A stretch of DNA of 64,000 nucleotides, from positions 62,001 through 126,000 of the forward strand of contig JAHISP010000060.1 of assembly GCA_018818165.1 (NCBI GenBank). Direction: 5' to 3'. Source of the stretch: Bacteroidota bacterium. GTDB lineage: Bacteria; Bacteroidota; Ignavibacteria; Ignavibacteriales; Melioribacteraceae. The position numbers and the translations under genes were made by a program. Below the pieces are notes generated by a model. That model was not told the DNA's origin. It did no database searches and saw only the letters and a program-made list of their open reading frames with translations. Positions 12,968-24,723 of this stretch are shown here, in pieces (the stretch's first letter is position 1; every line of letters starts with the position of its first letter).

Positions 12968-14671
12968 GAGGCTGTGTGAAAAGCCTCAATTGTTGGCCTT
13001 TAATTATTTATATTTTTGTAATTCCATTGCTACTTTTTATATAATCTAAATTAATGGGAAAACATACAACTTATTGCACTAAAACAAAAAAAACAAAGAG
13101 CATCTTATGCAGATACCCAATCATAACCAATTATTAGTTCCATTATATTGTCAAAAGACTCAATATTAAGCAATCTCTTTATATTGTAAGCAGTTGAGTA
13201 TATATTTATTTCTGTTGAAACTTTTTCTTTTCCTCTTAGTAACAACGGTATTTTTCCCATCCAATATTTTAGTGTTCCAAATGGGTGCTCTACTATTGTT
13301 TTTCTTTTATTTACTTTTGCTTTTGAGAATACTTGTTCCATTCTCTTTTTATAACTTTCAACCCATTCAATATTTGATGGTCTATATAAAATTCTACCAC
13401 TTTTCGATTTTGTGCATTCTGCTCTTAATTTACATCCATCACATTCTAGCCCTTGATACATATCGGAATAACCATTCTTTCTTTCCTTGTTCTTTTGTTT
13501 TAATACTAGTGGTTTCCTTTCCGAACAAATATACTCATCTTTTTCCTTATTGTATTTGAACTCTGAAACTTCTTTTTTCTCGTCTGGTATTGCTACATAA
13601 CATTTAATTTCTTCGTCCAATTCTAATTCTTCTATTTTGGTTGGTTTGTAATAGCCTTTATCTGCCAATACTTCTTCTGGTTTCTTGCCTATTTCTTCTT
13701 CTATAGAATTTACCATTGGCTCTAATTGATTTAAGTCATTCTCCTCATCTGTCACTTCTGTGTCTGCTATCATATTATGCTTTGAATCAACTCCCGATTG
13801 AATATTATAGGCTGGGATAAATCCATCTCTACTTTTCATTAGTCGGGCTTCTTTGTCTGAGAGACTCACGCTGCTTCGGTTATTCTCTTCTAAAAATCTT
13901 TTTGCTTCTACCAGTTTTTCTATCTTTGCTTGTGAGACTATATATTTGTCCAATAGTATTTTGTTTATATCTGCACCAATATATTCTGTTGCTAATTCTT
14001 CTTCTAAGGATTCTAATGTATCATTAGATTGTAGTTTTAGTAAATATTCTTCTATATTCTTATTCAAGTTCTCTAATCTTTTTTCTATCTTTTTTACCGT
14101 TAACATATCTTTACTGGCATATGCCTTTATTTTTGTCCCATCTATTGCTACTGTTTTTCCTTCTATATATCCGGTAGAGCGTAAGAACTTGCGAAATGAT
14201 TTCGTTAATTGCTTTATCGAATCTCCATTTTCTTTTCTGTAATTAGATATAACCCAATGGTCTGGTTGTAAATCTCCCAGCAGCCACTTTACTTCTATAT
14301 TCCGCTTTGTTTCTGATTCTAATTTACGGGAACTACTTATTCCGTGTAAATAACCATAAATATATAGCTTTAAGAAAGTTATATCATGATATCTGGGGCG
14401 CCCAATATTATCTTCTTTTGCTTTTGTGAATTTGTCTCTTTGACTATTATAAATTTTATCAACTAAAACATCCATTATTCTTATTGGATTGTCTGGTGCA
14501 TTCGACAAATCCAAACTGTTCATCATATTTAGCTGATTACGATCTTGAGGTTGTATATATATCATAATATTGTCTTACTTAATTCTATTTATTTTGTATA
14601 TAAATATAACTATTTTATCACATTTGTTAACCAAAATCTTTTCCCTTGACTTCGACTTTTCACACAGCCTC
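12968..14671 (-). mobile_element. IS1182-like insertion sequence (1704 bp)
   Basis: Perfect 16-bp terminal inverted repeats, GAGGCTGTGTGAAAAG at 12968-12983 and its complement at 14656-14671, enclose one intact transposase gene. TTAA flanks both ends (12964-12967, 14672-14675) and reads as a 4-bp target duplication. Removing the IS and one TTAA restores a perfect 24-bp palindrome (arm AACCCACGAC). The left end also carries a small internal hairpin (GAGGCT...AAGCCTC). Confidence 0.9.
13105..14565 (-). CDS. IS1182-family DDE transposase
   Basis: The 486-residue protein has a DUF772-type N-terminal region (RPRYHDITFLKLYIYGYLHG, about 52-75) and a DDE catalytic core: first Asp in TVAIDGTKIKAYAS, second in EEVLADKGYY, and Glu in KTIVEHPFGTLKYWMG. 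A CDGCKLRAECTKS cysteine cluster (about 390-402) is typical of the family. The gene looks full length and undamaged, so the copy may be active. It lies inside matched terminal repeats and a clean target duplication. Confidence 0.9.
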   Translation of the reverse strand: MIYIQPQDRNQLNMMNSLDLSNAPDNPIRIMDVLVDKIYNSQRDKFTKAKEDNIGRPRYHDITFLKLYIYGYLHGISSSRKLESETKRNIEVKWLLGDLQPDHWVISNYRKENGDSIKQLTKSFRKFLRSTGYIEGKTVAIDGTKIKAYASKDMLTVKKIEKRLENLNKNIEEYLLKLQSNDTLESLEEELATEYIGADINKILLDKYIVSQAKIEKLVEAKRFLEENNRSSVSLSDKEARLMKSRDGFIPAYNIQSGVDSKHNMIADTEVTDEENDLNQLEPMVNSIEEEIGKKPEEVLADKGYYKPTKIEELELDEEIKCYVAIPDEKKEVSEFKYNKEKDEYICSERKPLVLKQKNKERKNGYSDMYQGLECDGCKLRAECTKSKSGRILYRPSNIEWVESYKKRMEQVFSKAKVNKRKTIVEHPFGTLKYWMGKIPLLLRGKEKVSTEINIYSTAYNIKRLLNIESFDNIMELIIGYDWVSA

Positions 14672-14725
14672 TTAAGTCGTGGGTTAGTGGTAAAAGGACA
14701 AAAATCTTTAACGGTTTTAACCGTT
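14672..14725. repeat. Right half of the split REP/BIME-like repeat
   Basis: TTAA and GTCGTGGGTT (14672-14685) complete the central palindrome. AACGGTT-TT-AACCGTT (14710-14725) mirrors the left outer palindrome. The original element therefore had three palindromes over about 110 bp. Confidence 0.7.
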
Positions 14726-14784
14726 TAAAACCTTTTTAAAGTAGACTCATAAATATTAGAGTTTAGTAATTTAATTAAGAATAA

Positions 14785-15153
14785 TCATTGTATTCTAAAT
14801 CCAAAACTAAGCATTTGGTCAATATCGTTTTCACTAATATAACAATGAATACGGTCGCCTCTGGGACAATTACAAGCAGCACAAGTTGCATCGTAAGGAA
14901 AAGACTGCTCTAGTTTATAAATTAAGATACCTAAGTTTTCAAAATATTGTTCAAATATTTGAAGCTTTTTGGTATCAGTAAACTTTGAATACAATTCATA
15001 ATCATCATTGTTTTTTTCTAACCAGTCTTGTTCCCAAGTATTTCCCATGCATTGTATTGGGTCAATTGTTACCCACTGACGATTTGCATCCTCTTTACAA
15101 GCCTGAAAAAATACTCCAAGAAAAAGGATTACTGATAATAGAAAATATTTCAT
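14785..15153 (-). CDS. Small Cys-containing lipoprotein of unknown function
   Basis: This 122-residue protein, starting at ATG 15153, has a lipoprotein signal peptide with lipobox FFQAC. The mature part holds a cysteine cluster, CAACNCPRGDRIHC, near residues 91-104 and an isolated Cys in PIQCMG, which might bind metal or form disulfides. I recognise no family. I chose ATG 15153 rather than 15159 because it gives the standard 4-nt ATGA overlap with the epimerase stop. The pair is thus translationally coupled and may act together. Confidence 0.6.
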   Translation of the reverse strand: MKYFLLSVILFLGVFFQACKEDANRQWVTIDPIQCMGNTWEQDWLEKNNDDYELYSKFTDTKKLQIFEQYFENLGILIYKLEQSFPYDATCAACNCPRGDRIHCYISENDIDQMLSFGFRIQ

Positions 15154-16142
15154 AACCATTTCTCTTTTTTATACCAATCAATAGTTGCCTTCATTCCCTC
15201 ATCAAGCGAATACTTTTCTACAAATCCTAAATCCTTTTGAGCTTTTGTGGTGTCACATGTCCAAGCTTCTTGAACAAAATCACGAGCTTTTTCAAGATTA
15301 AACGTAGCTGGTTTGCTGCTAAACATTGAGAAAAATTGGGCAAATGCAGCAACTATGTAAACAAGGAAATGAGGTAATCTTAAATTAATTGCACCTTTTC
15401 CCATTGCATTTTTTATAACTTTGCCAATTTGAGGCCAATTATAAAACTCTTTTGAACTGATAAAGTAAGTTTCACCTTTCGCAATTTCTGATGTTGCGGC
15501 AAGATAAATTCCTTGTACTAAATCTTTAACATATATTATACTCAACTCTTTTCTGTTAAATCCAACAAGAGTCATTAATCCTTGTTTATATGTTTTGAAG
15601 ACTAAATAAATCTCAGTATCGCGGTCGCCATATATTGCTGGTGGGCGCACAATTGTAATTGGTAATTTATCCATGTATTTTTTTGCCAATTCCTCTTGCG
15701 CAACTTTACTTCTTCCATAGGTTGTAATTGGATTTGGAATACTTTCTTCATCTACTGGAAAATCAAGTTTTGAAGGTCCACTTGCGGTTAAACTACTAAC
15801 AATTAGAACTCTTTTTATATTTGGAGCAACTTCTAAAACTGCGTCTAATAAATTTCTTGTTGTTTCAACATTTCCTTTAAAATAACCTTCTTCTGTTTTT
15901 GCTTTTACAACTCCCGCAACGTGATAAAGAAAATCAATATCTTTCAATATTATTTTCAATGAGTTAAAATCAAATAAACCTGAATCGTGAATTACTACAT
16001 TTTTACCTTCTAACCAACGTAAACTGCTACTTCTTCTTACAATACAGTGAACTTCATCTCCCTTTTCTAAAAGATAATCAACTAAATGGCTTCCTACAAA
16101 ACCACTTGCACCTGTTACTACTGATATATTTTTTGTGATCAT
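15150..16142 (-). CDS. SDR-type NAD(P)-dependent epimerase/reductase, candidate ceramide reductase (CerR-like)
   Basis: The 330-residue extended SDR has the nucleotide-binding motif VTGASGFVGSHL at residues 9-20, HVAGVVKA, the catalytic YGRSK motif and VRPPAIYGDRD. It is divergently paired (123-nt gap) with a serine palmitoyltransferase gene and close to a GNAT-like acyltransferase. In Caulobacter, Spt, bCerS (a GNAT-like acyltransferase) and CerR (an NAD-dependent epimerase/dehydratase homologue) make ceramide, so this gene could reduce the 3-keto group of the sphingoid intermediate. That role is inferred from context. On sequence alone it could be any sugar epimerase or ketoreductase. Confidence 0.65.
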   Translation of the reverse strand: MITKNISVVTGASGFVGSHLVDYLLEKGDEVHCIVRRSSSLRWLEGKNVVIHDSGLFDFNSLKIILKDIDFLYHVAGVVKAKTEEGYFKGNVETTRNLLDAVLEVAPNIKRVLIVSSLTASGPSKLDFPVDEESIPNPITTYGRSKVAQEELAKKYMDKLPITIVRPPAIYGDRDTEIYLVFKTYKQGLMTLVGFNRKELSIIYVKDLVQGIYLAATSEIAKGETYFISSKEFYNWPQIGKVIKNAMGKGAINLRLPHFLVYIVAAFAQFFSMFSSKPATFNLEKARDFVQEAWTCDTTKAQKDLGFVEKYSLDEGMKATIDWYKKEKWL

Positions 16143-16265
16143 AAAACATCTTATATTTTGTTTTCAAAATTGGATTAATATCTATTAAATGGTAAATTAG
16201 CAAGTTAAATTTATACTAAAAATACTAATTATAAAATACATTTTTATACTATTATTGGAGAAACA

Positions 16266-17456
16266 TTGGATTTATTCAAAAAATGTTATGATTTTACTCG
16301 TGCAGATGAAATAAAAAAAACAGGACTATATCCTTATTTCCGAGCAATTGAAGAAAATGAAGGGCCATTAGTTCACATTGAAGGGCGCGAAGTTATTATG
16401 GCTGGTTCAAATAATTATTTAGGACTAACTGCTCATCCCAAAGTAAAAGAAGCTTCTATTAAAGCTATTGAAAAATATGGAACTGGTTGTTCTGGCTCGC
16501 GTTATTTGACCGGTACACTTGAATTGCATTTAGAACTTGAAAGAAAAATGGCAAAGTTTTTTGGCGTTGAAGCTGTTCTTCTTTATAGTACTGGTTACCA
16601 AACAGGACAAGGTGTAATTCCTACTCTTGTGCAACGTGGTGAATATGTTGTATCTGATAAAGATAATCACGCATCAATTCAAATTGCTACAATGATGGCA
16701 AAAGGTATGTCCGCAGATTTATCAAGATATAAGCACAATGATATGGCTGATTTGGAAAGAGTTTTGAATAAAATTCCCAAAGAAACTCCAAAACTAATTG
16801 TTAGTGATGGTGTATTTAGCACAGGTGGTGAAATAGTTGAATTAGATAAATTAGTTGCTCTCGCAAAAGAACATAATGCGCGTACTCTTATTGATGACGC
16901 ACACGCAGTTGGCGTTATTGGAAAAGGTGGACGTGGTACCGCAAGCGAATTTAATTTAGTTGGCGATGTTGATTTAACAATGGGTACTTTTAGCAAGACG
17001 TTTGCCTCACTTGGTGGATTTATTGCTGGTAAAGCAAAAGTTGTTGATTATATTAAACATCATAGCGCTGCTTTAATTTTTTCTGCTTCCCCAACTCCTG
17101 CCTCTGTTGCTGCTGCAATGGCTGCTTTGGAAATTCTTGAAGCAGAACCATGGAGAGTTGATAAATTAATTTATAACGCAAATTATATTCGTAAAGGTTT
17201 AACCGAAGCTGGTTTTAACGTTATTGATGGAAGAACTGGAATTGTTCCTGTAATTGTTGGAAATGATGAAATTGCTTTCAAAATGTGGCGAATGTTATTT
17301 GATGCTGGTGTTTTTGTTAATGTTTTCATTTCACCAGGCGTACCAGAAGGAAGACAAATGATGCGCACTAGTTACATGGCAACACACGAAGAATCACATC
17401 TTGACCAAATAATTGATGTATTTAAAAAAGTAGGGACTGAATTGGGATTGGTTTAA
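16266..17456 (+). CDS. spt: Serine palmitoyltransferase-like alpha-oxoamine synthase
   Basis: The 396-residue PLP enzyme belongs to the alpha-oxoamine synthase family. The PLP lysine is Lys244 in [14 protein letters not shown]-stacking His135 lies in DKDNHAS, and [10 protein letters not shown] holds the Asp/His pair. The TFSK...SLGG active-site form and [13 protein letters not shown] region resemble Bacteroidetes serine palmitoyltransferases more than KBL or BioF (which have TLGKA). The expected reaction is serine + acyl-CoA to 3-ketodihydrosphingosine. The TTG start at 16266 is supported by GGAG five nt upstream. The neighbouring SDR reductase and GNAT acyltransferase fit ceramide synthesis. 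KBL activity remains an alternative. Confidence 0.75.
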
Positions 17457-17485
17457 TTGTTTCAATTTACAAATTATATTTTTAG

Positions 17486-17523
17486 GCTCAATGATGTTGT
17501 TTTCATCACTGAGCTTTTTTTTT
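17486..17523 (+). terminator. Terminator/attenuator between spt and the acyltransferase gene
   Basis: Arms GCTCAATGATG and CATCACTGAGC (17486-17514) are followed by nine Ts. The next gene starts 12 nt later, so the T-run may set the expression ratio of the two genes rather than end the operon completely. Confidence 0.7.
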
Positions 17524-17534
17524 AAGGAGTTTTT

Positions 17535-18656
17535 ATGAATAGTATTGAAATTAAAACACTTCATCCAACAAAGGATATTGTAAAATTTATAAAATTTGCT
17601 TGGAAAATTTATAAGAATGATCCAAATTGGGTTCCACCCCTTTTAATGGATAAAAAGAAAATTCTTAATAAAGACAAAAACCCATTTTTCAAAACAGCAG
17701 AAATGGAAATGTTTATGGCTTTTAAAAATGGCGAACCAGTTGGAAGAATTGCCGCAATTAAAAATGATACTCATAACAAAGTTCATAACGAAAATATTGG
17801 TTTTTTTGGATTTTTTGAATCAATCAATGACCAAGAAGTTGCAAATACATTGTTGGATAAAGCCAAAGAATGGTTAAAAAGTAAAGGTGTAACAGCAATG
17901 CGTGGTCCAGCAAATCCATCCAGTAATGATGAGTTCGGGATGCTTTTAGAAGGGTTTGACGATCCTCCTAGATTAATGATGACATATAATCCTAAATATT
18001 ATTTAGATTTAATGGATAATTATGGATTAAAAAAGATAAAAGATTTGCTTGCATATAAGATTGATAATCCTAAATTACTAAAATCAGAAAAATTAATTCG
18101 TGTTGCCGAAATTGCAAGAAAAAGATCCAAAGTTGAGATTAAGCAAATAAATCTTAAGCAATTCAAAAGTGAATTAGAAAAAGTAAAACTTGTTTATAAT
18201 CAAGCTTGGGCTCCTAATTGGGGCTTTATTCCAATGACTGATGAAGAAATTGATAATTTGGCAAAGGAGTTGAAACCACTTGTTGAAGAATCGCTAGTCT
18301 TGTTTGCAGAAGTTGAAGACAAAATAGTTGCTTTTGCACTTGTTATGCTTGATTATAATGAACTATTTAAAGATTTTAACGGCAGATTATTGCCTTTTAA
18401 TTTTATTAAGCTTTTCACCCAAAGAAAAAAAATTAAATGGGCTAGAGTTCTTACTTTAGGAATTATTCCAGAATATCAAAAGCGTGGTTTAGATGCACTT
18501 TTGTATTATGAAATTACTAAACGAGCTGAAAAGATTGGAATACTAAAAGGCGAAGCAAGCTGGATTCTTGAAGATAATGCCATGATGACTCGAGGGGCGG
18601 AGGCAATGAATGGCGAAGTTTATAAAAAATACCGTGTTTATGAGATGTCAATTTAA
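17535..18656 (+). CDS. GNAT-fold acyltransferase, candidate bacterial ceramide synthase (bCerS-like)
   Basis: The 373-residue soluble protein starts at ATG 17535 after AAGGAG. Conserved blocks are NDPNWVPPLLMDKK near residue 31, NPFF, GEPVGRIAAI (an acyl-CoA-binding GNAT-like strand), FGFFES, RGPANPSSNDEFG, and a second GNAT-like part with LTLGIIPEYQKRGLDALLYYE. This is the pattern I associate with the family that includes Caulobacter bCerS, which N-acylates the sphingoid base with fatty acyl-CoA. Position directly after spt supports that. A generic N-acyltransferase of other substrate is the alternative. A terminator at 18664 ends the unit. Confidence 0.6.
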   Translation: MNSIEIKTLHPTKDIVKFIKFAWKIYKNDPNWVPPLLMDKKKILNKDKNPFFKTAEMEMFMAFKNGEPVGRIAAIKNDTHNKVHNENIGFFGFFESINDQEVANTLLDKAKEWLKSKGVTAMRGPANPSSNDEFGMLLEGFDDPPRLMMTYNPKYYLDLMDNYGLKKIKDLLAYKIDNPKLLKSEKLIRVAEIARKRSKVEIKQINLKQFKSELEKVKLVYNQAWAPNWGFIPMTDEEIDNLAKELKPLVEESLVLFAEVEDKIVAFALVMLDYNELFKDFNGRLLPFNFIKLFTQRKKIKWARVLTLGIIPEYQKRGLDALLYYEITKRAEKIGILKGEASWILEDNAMMTRGAEAMNGEVYKKYRVYEMSI

Positions 18657-18663
18657 TTTTTTG

Positions 18664-18688
18664 GGCAGAAATCTTTTCTGCCTTTTTT
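18664..18688 (+). terminator. Rho-independent terminator after the acyltransferase gene
   Basis: GGCAGAAA-TCT-TTTCTGCC (18664-18682) is followed by TTTTTT. It is a compact canonical terminator in the 57-nt gap before the next gene. Confidence 0.85.
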
Positions 18689-18713
18689 ACTAATAAATAC
18701 ACTAGGTAATGAT

Positions 18714-20750
18714 TTGAAAAAACGAATTTTTGTTTTATTGTCCATTCTTTTATTACTTTCAAGCAACTTAACTTTCTCACAATTTACACAAAACGATTCT
18801 GCATTAGTTAGAACAACATTTCTTCGTGAATTTGATAAAGATATTATTTACCAATACTTATCTTCTAATGATTCTACAAAAATACATGCTGCACTTTTAT
18901 CCATAAGCCATTCTGAAGATACTACATTTGTCGATTCTGTTATTAAACTAGATTTTAATAATTATGGCGATTATATTTCTTTTGCATTGGGACAATTAGG
19001 TGAAAGTAAAAAATCGGAAGACTATCTTTATGATTCTGCTTATGTTCCATTTAAGGATAATTACATTGAGGCACTTGGTTTATGTGGTGATTCCTTAACT
19101 CTTGATTTTTTAATGCAAACAATTGACAGTATCTCAGATAGTCATTACTCACCTGTTAGTTCAATAACTTTTCCCATAGTTATTGCTAATTTTTATTCTC
19201 GTGGAATTACAAATGAACGTTCGCTCGAATATCTTGTGAACAATTTAAAGAAGATACCCCAAAACCTAAAATTACTTGATGAATATAAAGCAAATTCAAT
19301 ACTTATAAGCATTTATAATAATGAACGAGCTTTGAATACTGCTTATGCTCTTTACAGACTTGGTTCAAGTAAAGAAGCAATACCAGAATTAATTAAATAT
19401 CTAAACAATGATTACTATCATCAAACAAAACTTTATGCTCTTGGAAATTTTAGAAAATTAAAATATTTTCCAGATGATCCCATTTTGCTTAGTAATTTAG
19501 TTAACTCAGATTCTTGGAGAATTAGAACTGAAACAGCAAACTCAGCTTGTTACTATCCATTTAGTTCAAAGGGAGAAATTGGCAATTACATTTATCTAGT
19601 ATTAGATAATAATCCAAATGTATCTCGCACAGCAGCAATAGCACTAAAAAACATTAAATATCCCAAAGATCAAATTTGGATCAAGCATGAAATAGAAGCG
19701 CTTCTTCAAAACCAAAATCTCACAAAAAATACACGAGGTGAATTGCTAATTAGTTATGCTTCCCTTTTCAAAATAGCAACCGATTCATTAGTAAATGTAG
19801 TTTCCCAACAAATTGAACCAAAATTTATTTATCGACTTTTAGCTGATAATATATCTAATCCAGAATTTAATTTTAAATATTTGAATGAAAGGATTATTAA
19901 TAGTAGTGAAATAGAATTACTGGATTTATTACCTGCATATTTAACTTTGCAAAATAAATATCTCAACAATAAAGAATATGCCTCCTATTTGTTTACGGTA
20001 TTGAAAGGCAACAAAACATCATCAGTTTCTATAATTGCTGATGGATTAGAACTTCCAATAATAAAACAAAATAAAGAAGTTTTGCAAGAAATAATTCTCG
20101 AACAAATATTTAATCATAAAAATGATACCCAATTTTCTGAAACAATCATTTCGCTCGCTAATTTAGCAAATAGAGTTGACAACTTATTTTATGAAAGTGT
20201 AATTGATATGCTCTCATCTTCCATGCTTAATTCCATTAAAAAATATGCTCTTGAAAAACAAGGTCTTAAATTTGAAGCATTAAAGGATGATGCTTTGTTT
20301 ATCCGACTCTGGAGTTCTGCATTCAAATACAAATTTGCATATGTTGAAACAAACAAAGGCAATTTCACAATTGAATTAAAACCGGAATTTGCTCCAATGA
20401 CTTGTGGCAATTTTATAACTCTTGCTGAAAAGGGTTTTTATAATGGAGTTATTTTTCATCGAGTTGTTCCTAACTTTGTTATCCAAACTGGTGATACAAC
20501 CAACACTGGTTGGGGCGGACCTGGCTATGAAATAGTTTCAGAATTTTCACCACTTCCATTTGATAGAGCCGCTGTTGGAATTGCAAGTATTGGAAAAGAT
20601 ACGGAAGGCTCACAATGGTTTGTTATGCATTCAAATTATCCTCATTTAAATGGAAGATACACTAATTGGGCAAATGTTATTGAAGGAATGGAAATTGTTG
20701 ACATTATTGATGAAGGAGATAGAGTTATAAGTATAAAATTTGCCAAATAG
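18714..20750 (+). CDS. HEAT-like repeat protein with C-terminal cyclophilin PPIase domain
   Basis: The 678-residue exported protein begins at TTG 18714, the only start that keeps the signal peptide (about 1-22, KKRIFVLLSILLLLSSNLTF...). A long central region (about 40-500) consists of helical, HEAT-like repeats, for example SDSWRIRTETANSACYYPF and NPNVSRTAAIALKNI. Residues about 540-675 are a cyclophilin domain: TNKGNFTIELKPEFAPMTCG, GVIFHRVVPNFVIQTGD, GSQWFVMHSNYPHLNGRYT. The catalytic Arg in FHRVVP and the Q/F pair are retained. It should act as a periplasmic prolyl isomerase whose scaffold recruits envelope clients. The fusion is larger than ordinary PpiA-type cyclophilins. Confidence 0.8.
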   Translation: MKKRIFVLLSILLLLSSNLTFSQFTQNDSALVRTTFLREFDKDIIYQYLSSNDSTKIHAALLSISHSEDTTFVDSVIKLDFNNYGDYISFALGQLGESKKSEDYLYDSAYVPFKDNYIEALGLCGDSLTLDFLMQTIDSISDSHYSPVSSITFPIVIANFYSRGITNERSLEYLVNNLKKIPQNLKLLDEYKANSILISIYNNERALNTAYALYRLGSSKEAIPELIKYLNNDYYHQTKLYALGNFRKLKYFPDDPILLSNLVNSDSWRIRTETANSACYYPFSSKGEIGNYIYLVLDNNPNVSRTAAIALKNIKYPKDQIWIKHEIEALLQNQNLTKNTRGELLISYASLFKIATDSLVNVVSQQIEPKFIYRLLADNISNPEFNFKYLNERIINSSEIELLDLLPAYLTLQNKYLNNKEYASYLFTVLKGNKTSSVSIIADGLELPIIKQNKEVLQEIILEQIFNHKNDTQFSETIISLANLANRVDNLFYESVIDMLSSSMLNSIKKYALEKQGLKFEALKDDALFIRLWSSAFKYKFAYVETNKGNFTIELKPEFAPMTCGNFITLAEKGFYNGVIFHRVVPNFVIQTGDTTNTGWGGPGYEIVSEFSPLPFDRAAVGIASIGKDTEGSQWFVMHSNYPHLNGRYTNWANVIEGMEIVDIIDEGDRVISIKFAK

Positions 20751-20934: not shown

Positions 20935-21819
20935 TTATTTTTCTTGAGCTTCTATATATTTAGATGTATGAGCAGGATCAATTTTAATTAATTTATTAAA
21001 TATTGTTCTGTCTTCATAATTCTTAAGGTATGAAACCAATTCACCAGCTTTTGCATCAAAAAATGAATTTATAAAAGGACTTCTAATATTTGTAGTTTTT
21101 TTCATTTGCTCAAGATTATCAACTAGTTTGTTTATATTTTTATATGTTGTTTCTTTATCACGATAAAAAACATCCAATCCATTGTAATGATAATCAAAAA
21201 TATCTTGCCTAAATTTCTGGAAGTTTGCACCTGTAGCATCCTCAATAAAACCACGTTTATAGTAATTTGCATTCTTTGTTCCCCAGCTATCGGTGTATCC
21301 AGAAGTTCCGCCCATAATAGCAATTCTCATTGCTTCCTGAAAATAAGTTGTTCCACCAAATGGTTGATATGAATCTGCATCCATTCCAATAATTACAAGG
21401 GCATAAAAATCCAAGAAACTTGTGAGCTGATTAAAATCCATTGTATTAAAATATAAACTTTGATTTTTCTCGTAAAGAAAAGTCCATTTATTATCCATAA
21501 TATTCAACATTAAAGAGCGTTTTTCGCTACCTTCAACTGGACGAGTACTATTTATTACTACTTGTGCTGTATAATTCAGTTCATCCGATGCGGTAGTAAA
21601 AAATATATTAAAGCTACAATTTATTCTAGGCCACTCCCAACTGCTACCAGTAAATTTTGTATTATTAAGATAATCTTCAATTTGATTTTTAAATACTACT
21701 AGATGTTCCCTATAAATTGTTTTAAGTTGTTCAGTATTTATTTGTACCGTTGCCTCTAACTCCTGTCCCCAGATATTAAGATTTAATAAAAGGAAAATAA
21801 CAACAAAACACTTTTTCAT
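20935..21819 (-). CDS. porD: PorD-like (DUF4835) T9SS accessory protein
   Basis: The 294-residue protein has a signal peptide (about 1-18, LNLNIWGQ) and matches the DUF4835/PorD pattern: TNTEQL-like start, YLNNTKFTGSSWEWPRINCS, NRPV-like STRPVEGSEKRSLML, LTSFLDFYALVIIGMDADSY, and a C-terminal FFDAKAGELVSYL. PorD is required for, or associated with, T9SS function in Porphyromonas. Its presence agrees with the T9SS cargo proteins in this window. It is divergent from a PorV/PorQ-like barrel gene 161 nt away. Confidence 0.75.
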   Translation of the reverse strand: MKKCFVVIFLLLNLNIWGQELEATVQINTEQLKTIYREHLVVFKNQIEDYLNNTKFTGSSWEWPRINCSFNIFFTTASDELNYTAQVVINSTRPVEGSEKRSLMLNIMDNKWTFLYEKNQSLYFNTMDFNQLTSFLDFYALVIIGMDADSYQPFGGTTYFQEAMRIAIMGGTSGYTDSWGTKNANYYKRGFIEDATGANFQKFRQDIFDYHYNGLDVFYRDKETTYKNINKLVDNLEQMKKTTNIRSPFINSFFDAKAGELVSYLKNYEDRTIFNKLIKIDPAHTSKYIEAQEK

Positions 21820-21980
21820 ATTTAACTCATTTAGTTAATAATTGATTAAAAGAAATAATTTAGATAACTTACAACAACTATGATTACAAGATATGAAACT
21901 TTCATGACTGTTTCAAAGGGATTAGGGTTTGTCTTGTAAACATAAATTTTTAATATTCAAAAAAGGCACAAATAATACAT

Positions 21981-22838
21981 ATGAATTTATTAAAAAAAAT
22001 AATATTTGTCTTGCTCATTTTTTGTTTTGCAAGCTTTGGACAAATTAAACCTGGAGCAAAACAAATTTCTCTTTCTCACTCCGATATTGCATTATGTAAT
22101 GATGTATATGCACTCTTTAATAATCCTGCTGGTTTATCGCAACAAAATTGGAGAGAGTTTAGCATATATTATTCCCCTTCACCTTTTGGAATAAATAAAC
22201 TTGCAAATAGTTCTGCTGTTTATCACGAACCAACAAATTATGGTTCATTTGCAATTGCATATTCAAACTATGGATTTGAGTTATACAAAGAAAATAATTT
22301 ATTTGTTTCTTACTCCAAAATTATTTCAAAAAACTTCTTTTTGGGTACAACTCTTACATATAGAAATTTATCCATTAAAAACTATGGTAGTGATAACGCA
22401 ATTACAATAATAATTGGCGGACTTGCGTATTTGACTGATAATTTGAGAATTGGTTTTGCTATTGATAATATAACGCATTCTTCTTTTGGAAAAGAAAACA
22501 ACCAAATACCAATGATTTTTAATTTTGGATTTAGCTATACACTTCTTTCAAAACTTATATTTAATGCTGCAATTGAGAAAGATATTGATAAAAACAGTTC
22601 GCTTAGAGTTGGAATTGATTATGAAATTATTAAATATTTAAATCTCAGAATTGGCGCAATGAATGAACCTTCCTCATTTTCAGCTGGTTTAGGAATTAAT
22701 TACTCAATTTTCGAAATTGACTACGCAGTTTTTAATCATCAGGATTTAGGTTTTACACATCAAATTGGTATTACCTTACAGTTTGGAAGTGATAAATCGA
22801 GAACAGAAAGGATAAAAGAATATTTGAGTGGGCAATAA
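21981..22838 (+). CDS. PorV/PorQ-like outer-membrane beta-barrel protein
   Basis: The 285-residue protein has a signal peptide (about 1-20, CFASFGQ). A PorV/PorQ (FadL-like) barrel follows: LSHSDIALCNDVYALFNNPAGLS is the typical plug-side 'NPAGL' motif, followed by alternating beta-strands with glycine and aromatic residues. Family members act as T9SS shuttle or outer-membrane scaffold proteins. The end overlaps or abuts the following gene, so the two are probably co-transcribed. Confidence 0.7.
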   Translation: MNLLKKIIFVLLIFCFASFGQIKPGAKQISLSHSDIALCNDVYALFNNPAGLSQQNWREFSIYYSPSPFGINKLANSSAVYHEPTNYGSFAIAYSNYGFELYKENNLFVSYSKIISKNFFLGTTLTYRNLSIKNYGSDNAITIIIGGLAYLTDNLRIGFAIDNITHSSFGKENNQIPMIFNFGFSYTLLSKLIFNAAIEKDIDKNSSLRVGIDYEIIKYLNLRIGAMNEPSSFSAGLGINYSIFEIDYAVFNHQDLGFTHQIGITLQFGSDKSRTERIKEYLSGQ

Positions 22839-24723
22839 ATTGAATGATATTATTAAAATATTTTTATTAGTGATAATTATTTTAACATCTAATGTTTCAG
22901 CTCAAAATGATTCATTAAAAAATATTGATTACATCCTTGAAAATATTCTAGAAGATGCAACAATAGAGCAGGAGAATTCACAACTCTATGATTTAATTGA
23001 GCAATATATCAATGATCCTATTGACCTCAATAATTCCGACAAATCAGAAATTATGAACCTACCATTTCTTGATATTGAATCTGCAAATGCAATTGTAAAA
23101 TATCGTAAAGATAATGGAAGAATATTTTCGTACTCTGAGCTAAAATCCATCGCAAATATTTCAACCAAATCAATTAAAATTCTACAAGCATTCACATTCT
23201 TAGAAAGACGAGAAAGTGAAATAGACTCCTCATTCTTAGAAAATTTAAAAATAAAACTACGTTCTCGTTTTTCACAGAATATTCAAGAAGCAGAAGGTTA
23301 CAAAAATGGATTTTATATTGGCACACCAGCAAAGATTTATAACAGATTGCTAATAAACACAAATCAGAAAATTCAAATTGGAATATTAACAGATAAAGAT
23401 GCGGGTGAAAAATCAATTTCTGATTTTCATTCATACTATTTTCTAGCTAATAATTTAATAAATGGAATAAAATTTATTGGTGGGTTTTATACAATGGAAT
23501 TTGGTCAAGGGCTTGCTTTATGGTCACCATATTCATTTTCTAAGGGTAGCGATGCAACAAATTCAATTATTAAAAGAGCTCGTGGTATTTCACCTTATAC
23601 AAGCGCTGGTGAATATTTGTATATGAAAGGTGCAGCTTTTAAATATTCATCTAATTTTTTTGAATTATCATCATTTTATTCATTTGGTGAGGGTAGTTTT
23701 AATTTATCACAAAATACTTATGGATTTATATTTACTTTACAGCCAATTAATTTCCTTAAACTTTCAGCACTTTACATGATTGAAAATCAAAATATATTTG
23801 ATAACGGTTCAACAACAAAAAGTGAATTGAACGAAAAACACATTTCCTTCAATTACGAATTGACTTATGGTGATTTGTTTTTAACTGGTGAATTTGCAAT
23901 CTATAACTCAAGCCTTGCAAACATAAATACTTTGCAACTCTCACTACTTCGCTCAATTATAGTTGTTACCTCAATCAGAAATTATTCAAATACTTACGAA
24001 AGCAAATACGGACAAGGCTTTGGTGAGACTAAAAATACTAATAACGAATTTGGCATTTATCTTGGCATTAAATGGAGACCAGATTTTGGAATTATAAATT
24101 TCTATCTCGATCAATTTAAGTTCCCAAATTCAAATGCTTCAATTGCACTTCCAAGTAGTGGAAATGAAATATCGTTCAGTTATGAATTATCTCCTGTTAA
24201 TAAAACAAATTTATATTTCAGATACTTTTCAGAAAATAAAGAAGTTTTGGAATTAGTAAATAATGAAAATATAATCCAAAATAGAAAAACGGATAAATTT
24301 AGATTTGAATTAATTTATAAAGTAAGTAATTCGATTCAACTTAAATCAAGAGTTGAATTGCTTTCACTAAATATGGTAAATATAAACGAAAAAGGTATTT
24401 TACTATTCCAGGATGTGAAATATAATTATTCGAAACAATTATCATTGCATGGGAGAATTATTTTCTTCCAAACAGATAGTTTTTCTTCTCGAATTTATGA
24501 ATTTGAAAATGATTTAAGTGGAGTTATGACAAATCCAGCTCTTTTTGGTTCTGGAGTAAAATGGTATTTACTTCTAAAATATAATCCTATTAATCATCTT
24601 TTTATTTCTGCAAAATATTCAGAACTTTTTAAACCAAATGAAGTAAATATTGGCTCTGGTAATAGTCTAATTAAAGGTAATATTGATAATAAAATAGCAC
24701 TTCAAATTGATTTTACCTTTTAA
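22828..24723 (+). CDS. Helix-hairpin-helix plus beta-barrel outer-membrane protein
   Basis: The 631-residue protein has a signal peptide (ending ILTSNVSAQ). An N-terminal ComEA-like helix-hairpin-helix region (about 60-120) contains DPIDLNNSDKSEIMNLPFLD and AIVKYRKDNGRIFSYSELKSI. A long beta-strand-rich C-terminal part resembles an outer-membrane barrel and ends in a terminal aromatic residue (ALQIDFTF). HhH motifs bind DNA in ComEA, so DNA uptake is one idea, but this architecture is common in the group and its role is unknown. The start is either GTG 22828, overlapping the upstream gene, or TTG 22840 one nt after its stop. Both keep the signal peptide. Confidence 0.6.
   Translation: MGNKLNDIIKIFLLVIIILTSNVSAQNDSLKNIDYILENILEDATIEQENSQLYDLIEQYINDPIDLNNSDKSEIMNLPFLDIESANAIVKYRKDNGRIFSYSELKSIANISTKSIKILQAFTFLERRESEIDSSFLENLKIKLRSRFSQNIQEAEGYKNGFYIGTPAKIYNRLLINTNQKIQIGILTDKDAGEKSISDFHSYYFLANNLINGIKFIGGFYTMEFGQGLALWSPYSFSKGSDATNSIIKRARGISPYTSAGEYLYMKGAAFKYSSNFFELSSFYSFGEGSFNLSQNTYGFIFTLQPINFLKLSALYMIENQNIFDNGSTTKSELNEKHISFNYELTYGDLFLTGEFAIYNSSLANINTLQLSLLRSIIVVTSIRNYSNTYESKYGQGFGETKNTNNEFGIYLGIKWRPDFGIINFYLDQFKFPNSNASIALPSSGNEISFSYELSPVNKTNLYFRYFSENKEVLELVNNENIIQNRKTDKFRFELIYKVSNSIQLKSRVELLSLNMVNINEKGILLFQDVKYNYSKQLSLHGRIIFFQTDSFSSRIYEFENDLSGVMTNPALFGSGVKWYLLLKYNPINHLFISAKYSELFKPNEVNIGSGNSLIKGNIDNKIALQIDFTF

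Follow-up and report, generated by a model that had tools for sequence, protein, structure and literature searches.

Do three neighbouring genes in a genome of the Ignavibacteria amount to a route to ceramide? The stretch that raises this question, hereafter the window, comprises 64,000 nucleotides of a Bacteroidota bacterium of the family Melioribacteraceae (assembly GCA_018818165.1, contig JAHISP010000060.1, positions 62,001 to 126,000; contig C9 in our lists) and belongs to a genome of 4.88 Mb rated 100% complete. It carries genes for a CerR-like extended short-chain dehydrogenase/reductase (SDR), a serine palmitoyltransferase (Spt)-like synthase and a bCerS-like GNAT N-acyltransferase, which a reading of the sequence alone had proposed as a compact ceramide biosynthesis cluster. 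The three open reading frames (ORFs) were confirmed next to each other at the positions given in Table 1, and they very probably encode the core of the bacterial ceramide pathway, the product of which would be dihydroceramide. The checks named with the proposal speak mostly for it, and support comes from the synthase tree, the active-site letters, searches with Sphingomonas queries and the co-occurrence of the three genes in related genomes.

The bacterial ceramide pathway is already known (PMC11087976, PMC11324152), and in Caulobacter crescentus the same three enzyme classes, Spt, CerS and CerR (CC_1162, CC_1154 and CC_1164), are encoded in one neighbourhood (PMC11324152). Genetic potential for sphingolipids has been noted in genera including Ignavibacter (PMC10667739, 2023, citing Stankeviciute et al. 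2022 among others), some Chlorobium produce sphingolipids according to a review (PMC10626005), and Spt-like genes occur in Black Sea metagenome-assembled genomes (MAGs) of 38 phyla (PMC11334938). Since these sources describe the pathway or the potential for it, the window trio is a further case of a known pathway, that is, an ordinary instance of a widespread gene set already suspected in Ignavibacteria.

Identity of the synthase

The spt-like ORF has a TTG start preceded by GGAGAA. Its best NCBIfam model is the Bacteroidetes-type serine palmitoyltransferase NF047600 (477.8 bits; next family, 378), and among solved structures the Spt of S. multivorum (3a2b) ranked first at 369 bits, followed by Kbl/AONS-type enzymes (284 bits), Sphingomonas-type Spt (about 256 bits) and the cysteate transferase 28eh (213 bits). 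Active-site letters were read in an alignment of 102 sequences, with residue roles taken from PMC10196870. Asn49, Ser78, His135, Ser185, Lys244, Ala274 and Arg367, the letters of an Spt active site, are all present, and the DDAH motif is kept. The window synthase thus has in common with the S. multivorum enzyme the catalytic Lys, the stacking His, Asn52, Ser81, Ala274 and the conserved Arg, and differs from it in carrying Ser for Ala79 and Ile for Met271.

Three other assignments were weighed against these results. One is that the synthase is Kbl or the 8-amino-7-oxononanoate synthase BioF, with neighbours unrelated to it; a family resemblance does exist (PRK06939, 363 bits; bioF, 357 bits; both under cut-off). 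In a tree of 39 rows (36 Spt, 2 Kbl and 1 BioF), however, the 36 Spt rows, that of the window among them, are parted from Kbl and BioF with 99/99 support, the BioF branch being very long and its placement unsure, and the window synthase grouped with Spts from GNAT- or SDR-linked loci, apart from Kbl and BioF. Val and Asn stand at the sites of its Ser78 and Ala274 in E. coli Kbl and in the Kbl of the genome itself. The latter, the true Kbl, lies on another contig (C75; TIGR01822, 630 bits, cut-off 493), and the gene directly before it encodes a threonine dehydrogenase (NF003808, 544 bits, cut-off 380), so that the neighbour which would have pointed to a Kbl adjoins the paralog and not the window synthase. 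The conserved gene triad also speaks against unrelated neighbours. Given the split in the tree, the active-site letters and the true Kbl beside its dehydrogenase gene elsewhere, the Kbl and BioF readings were rejected as highly improbable, and the sequence-only reading was right to set this enzyme with Spt.

The same enzyme class also includes the cysteate acyltransferase of sulfonolipid (capnine) synthesis (SulA/CFAT), and the cysteate C-fatty acyltransferase 28eh is among the structure matches; on such an assignment the other two enzymes would complete a sulfonolipid. Lys281 separates SulA from Spt, which carries Ala at that site (PMC9304779), and the letter that we take as its equivalent in the window synthase, located by combining PMC9304779 with PMC10196870, is Ala274. 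As this letter is not Lys and the Spt structure is the better match (369 vs 213 bits), the SulA assignment was rejected and is hardly to be expected. Somewhat less remote, yet still unlikely, is a synthase of the Spt type that prefers alanine, glycine or another amino acid and so leads to 1-deoxy-ceramides or amino-acid-modified ceramides. Ser76 of the window synthase stands at the site of S. multivorum Ala79, a residue linked by a water molecule to the side chain of the substrate (PMC10196870), and 1-deoxyceramides of the Black Sea have been tied to Desulfobacterota and/or Bacteroidota, with Spts that use other amino acids supposed as their source (PMC11334938). Ser occupies this site in 77 of the 102 aligned sequences. 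Against a different substrate, the remaining active-site letters agree with a serine enzyme, and S. multivorum Spt is far less efficient on alanine and glycine (PMC10196870).

The acyltransferase and the reductase

By tblastn, 45 plasmid records contained the GNAT family, and the surroundings of the gene were examined in ten of them. Five of these ten stretches, from Sphingomonas parapaucimobilis, Aureispira, Rubrobacter, E. coli and Streptomyces, also hold Spt-like and SDR genes. The Roseomonas stretch has SDR, acyl-AMP-ligase and LptF/G-like genes near the GNAT gene, with no Spt in the stretch, and that of Diaphorobacter has LptF/G-like and acyl-AMP-ligase genes; neither Spt nor such an SDR was seen near the GNAT gene in the Bacteroides, Chloroflexota and Ensifer stretches. 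The E. coli YghO plasmid cluster (strain PN43) resembles the window in having the GNAT gene beside Spt-like and SDR genes, but differs in its acyl carrier protein (ACP) and fatty acyl-AMP ligase genes, and its GNAT is 35% identical. This yghO locus spans L042:525-6122, and its GNAT was matched by no NCBIfam model.

The Sphingomonas cluster runs CerR-like, ACP, Spt, another gene, LptF, LptG, desaturase and bCerS-like GNAT; its Spt passes NF047603 (833 bits vs a cut-off of 670), and its make-up fits the Caulobacter gene set as described in PMC11324152. The labels CerR and bCerS on the Sphingomonas genes are our own, given by synteny. Caulobacter itself was likened to the window by described gene roles, the sequence comparison being made with the Sphingomonas cluster. 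With the Sphingomonas bCerS-like protein as query, the window GNAT was the sole match in its genome (33% identity, residues 3-380 of 383, E 8e-66). With the CerR-like query, the window SDR was the best match (77.8 bits, 31% identity) ahead of a runner-up at 23.3 bits, and its own nearest paralog in the genome scores 36 bits. The motifs TGASGFVG and YGRSK were found in the SDR by eye.

In two GNAT trees, of 46 and 27 rows and with the root not fixed, a long branch (100/100) separates four Bacteroides-type GNATs from the remaining rows, among them the window row, which falls within a starred set of ten rows, eight with an Spt in the locus. Among the matches listed, the named relatives closest to the window GNAT include a 'Chlorobiota bacterium' MAG (85%) and two Melioribacteraceae MAGs (73%), which on the strength of this one gene would place the lineage in the Ignavibacteria, probably in the Melioribacteraceae. 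The structure predicted for this protein from an input of 32 sequences (mean pLDDT 90.8) is a tandem GNAT fold over its full length, with 7q3a as a match (Z 24.6, root-mean-square deviation 3.4, 306 aligned residues) and several others tied with it. N-myristoyltransferases, which likewise form long-chain amides, are among the fold matches at a Z of about 16. Likeness of a predicted tandem-GNAT fold by itself demonstrates no function.

Co-occurrence and gene order

Each of the three proteins was used to search 148 genomes of the phylum, which are related and therefore not independent. Limits for Spt (1e-85) and SDR (1e-38) were set before those searches, that for the GNAT (240 bits) after the list had been seen. 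Of the 148 genomes, 108 have both Spt and SDR and 38 lack both, which leaves one genome with Spt alone of the two (G121) and one with SDR alone (G097), the latter a fragment at a contig edge. The complete trio is found in 106 genomes and none of the three in 36, under the post hoc GNAT limit.

By gene coordinates, the divergent SDR-Spt-GNAT triad is present in every one of 16 genomes drawn from the family (14) and the order (2), the window's own genome among them, and this constant adjacency indicates that the triad is not due to chance. Beyond these genomes we refer to named loci, the 80 top-ranking ones among 566 confirmed places; clustering of their neighbours gave a largest cluster of antisense artefacts, which was dropped. 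The Spt gene lies directly upstream of the GNAT gene in 51 of the best 80. Among the 74 with at least 1300 nucleotides of upstream sequence, 49 have Spt adjacent, 24 are without it and one has it further off. In the 51 Spt-GNAT loci the SDR gene is divergent in 41, and at another place on the plus strand in two; in the remaining eight, nothing in the stretch scores above 60 bits as an SDR. Clusters of Ignavibacteria and of Aureispira (Saprospirales) have the same trio in the same divergent layout as the window. The Rubrobacter cluster has the same trio but in the order Spt-GNAT-SDR on one strand, an arrangement found also in Streptomyces and in four loci from families f13 and f16. Caulobacter is different again: in the window bcerS adjoins spt and the SDR gene is divergent, and AcpR, AasR, LptF2/G2 and headgroup genes were not evident beside the trio by eye.

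Observations that weigh against a ceramide cluster

Several results pull the other way. The window synthase falls under all three listed NCBIfam cut-offs for Spt (NF047600, 478 of 640 bits; NF047599, 356 of 500; NF047603, 285 of 670); that of NF047600, its top model, is also missed by the Spt-like proteins of Aureispira (487 bits) and Rubrobacter (444 bits). By limits of our own choice, two genomes have a GNAT scoring 240 bits or more but no Spt, and two others have Spt but no such GNAT; 24 of the 74 named loci with room show no Spt anywhere in the stretch. In an unrooted tree the proteobacterial bCerS sub-clade (100/98) does not include the window GNAT; a single clade of window-type and proteobacterial bCerS that leaves out the Bacteroides-type GNATs is neither favoured nor opposed by a quick tree (SH-aLRT 34 for five paralogs as one side and 84 for the paralogs together with the proteobacterial rows). 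Two GNATs from loci without Spt (L060 and L045) fall on the same side of the main split as the window GNAT, where their branches are long. Conversely, a cluster with the same-strand order Spt-GNAT-SDR (G033) carries a GNAT of the Bacteroides type (L049), and membership of the GNAT family alone therefore does not settle function. As to the earlier assignment of the acyltransferase to bCerS, the enzyme is set apart from Bacteroides-type GNATs and is the sole match to the Sphingomonas query, but it does not fall in the proteobacterial sub-clade. As a separate observation, Bacteroides-type GNATs are not linked to Spt in the three other rows read, and L049 is a possible case of a ceramide synthase swap.

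The 43-nucleotide stretch 17482-17524 between spt and bcerS, a hairpin with a T run, folds at -14.1 kcal/mol (z -4.9), although a consensus terminator scan did not pick it up. For comparison, the 51 Spt-GNAT intergenic regions were taken; the 30 of at least 40 nucleotides were tested and the 21 shorter ones left out. A terminator-like element was present in 21 of the 30 (the window and 20 of the 29 others), whereas 100 shuffles gave 0.65 on average and never more than 3, by hairpin criteria of our own that were fixed after some folds had been seen. With such a hairpin between them, spt and bcerS may form separate or attenuated units, and one plain operon is doubtful. The adjacency of the cluster as first described stands, and the hairpin speaks against a simple single transcript. 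In the region 14500-19000, promoter-like matches were not above chance (18 vs a shuffle mean of 21.8), and the three terminator-like sites of the consensus scan were not significant in number (2.2 expected).

Neighbouring genes and lipoproteins

The features of the locus are collected in Table 1.

Table 1. Genes and sequence elements at and around the trio (window positions)
Feature	Position	Strand	Remarks
cerR-like extended SDR	15150-16142	-	330 amino acids; predicted ceramide/3-ketosphinganine reductase; Pfam Epimerase PF01370, 113.6 bits
spt-like alpha-oxoamine synthase	16266-17456	+	396 amino acids; Pfam Aminotran_1_2, 176.6 bits
bcerS-like tandem-GNAT N-acyltransferase	17535-18656	+	373 amino acids; Pfam Acetyltransf_1, 37.1 bits
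Divergent intergenic region, cerR/spt	16143-16265		expected from the layout to carry both transcript starts
Intrinsic-terminator-like hairpin and T run, spt/bcerS gap	17484-17524	+	RNA fold
Terminator-like hairpin 3' of bcerS	18663-18683	+	consensus scan
Cys-rich lipoprotein ORF	14785-15159	-	124 amino acids; overlaps SDR stop
IS1182-family transposase adjoining lipoprotein ORF	13105-14565	-	353 bits, cut-off 270
Cyclophilin-domain gene	18714-20750		homologs in 7/80 named loci
DUF4835, unnamed 285-amino-acid and helix-hairpin-helix proteins 3' of cluster	20935-24723		homologs in 19/80, 15/80 and 14/80 named loci

The Cys-rich lipoprotein had been described as translationally coupled to the reductase. 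Its ORF does start inside the SDR stop (ATGGTTATGA overlap), but it has no match in 57 relatives, four of them of the same genus, and was therefore rejected as a member of the pathway; none was found either in the searched ORFs of the loci, the window's own copies aside. Judged from these searches, the lipoprotein is probably lineage-specific and unrelated to the trio. The IS1182 transposase that adjoins this orphan suggests a local insertion or rearrangement.

In 20 loci of relatives (e.g. L089:168-572), cerR has as its tail-to-tail neighbour the gene of a different lipoprotein, a PSCyt1-type cytochrome with a heme-binding motif CxxCH or CxxxxCH. This lipoprotein is beside cerR in 18 of the 39 loci with SDR and Spt and at least 1 kb of room, among which some genomes may recur. 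The window shows no significant match to it (best tblastn E 0.13), and one homolog occurs in the window's genome on contig C73 (PSCyt1 23.2 bits, cut-off 22). That the Cys-rich lipoprotein simply replaced the relatives' cytochrome lipoprotein at this spot is half supported by these comparisons. To our knowledge, the periplasmic CerR of Caulobacter still has no known electron donor. We give little credence to the idea that in Ignavibacteriales a small c-type cytochrome lipoprotein would be dedicated to the reductase step.

Proposed pathway and its meaning

Homology, linkage and co-occurrence of the three genes are observations; the substrates, order of steps and product are what we infer from them for a ceramide pathway. 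From its family and active-site letters, the synthase would condense L-serine with a long-chain acyl thioester to 3-ketosphinganine. The tandem-GNAT enzyme, by its relation to bCerS and its predicted fold, would add a second fatty acyl chain to the amino group, and the SDR would reduce the 3-keto group either before or after this N-acylation. In Caulobacter, CerR is periplasmic and acts after N-acylation (PMC11087976); a by-eye reading of the window SDR did not reveal a signal peptide. Neither an ACP gene nor an acyl-ACP synthetase gene was evident by eye beside the trio, which for this reason resembles the Bacteroidetes-type pathway and not the AcpR/AasR-fed type of Caulobacter.

The resulting dihydroceramide would be the anchor of the bacterium's sphingolipids. 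LpxC is present in the genome, which speaks against sphingolipids replacing lipid A here. A complete core ceramide pathway is supported in Melioribacteraceae-like Ignavibacteria, a lineage that, judging by its genes, probably makes sphingolipids. Because the trio is kept in the 16 genomes drawn from the family and order, cultured members such as Melioribacter or Ignavibacterium are simple test cases for a bCerS outside the Proteobacteria.

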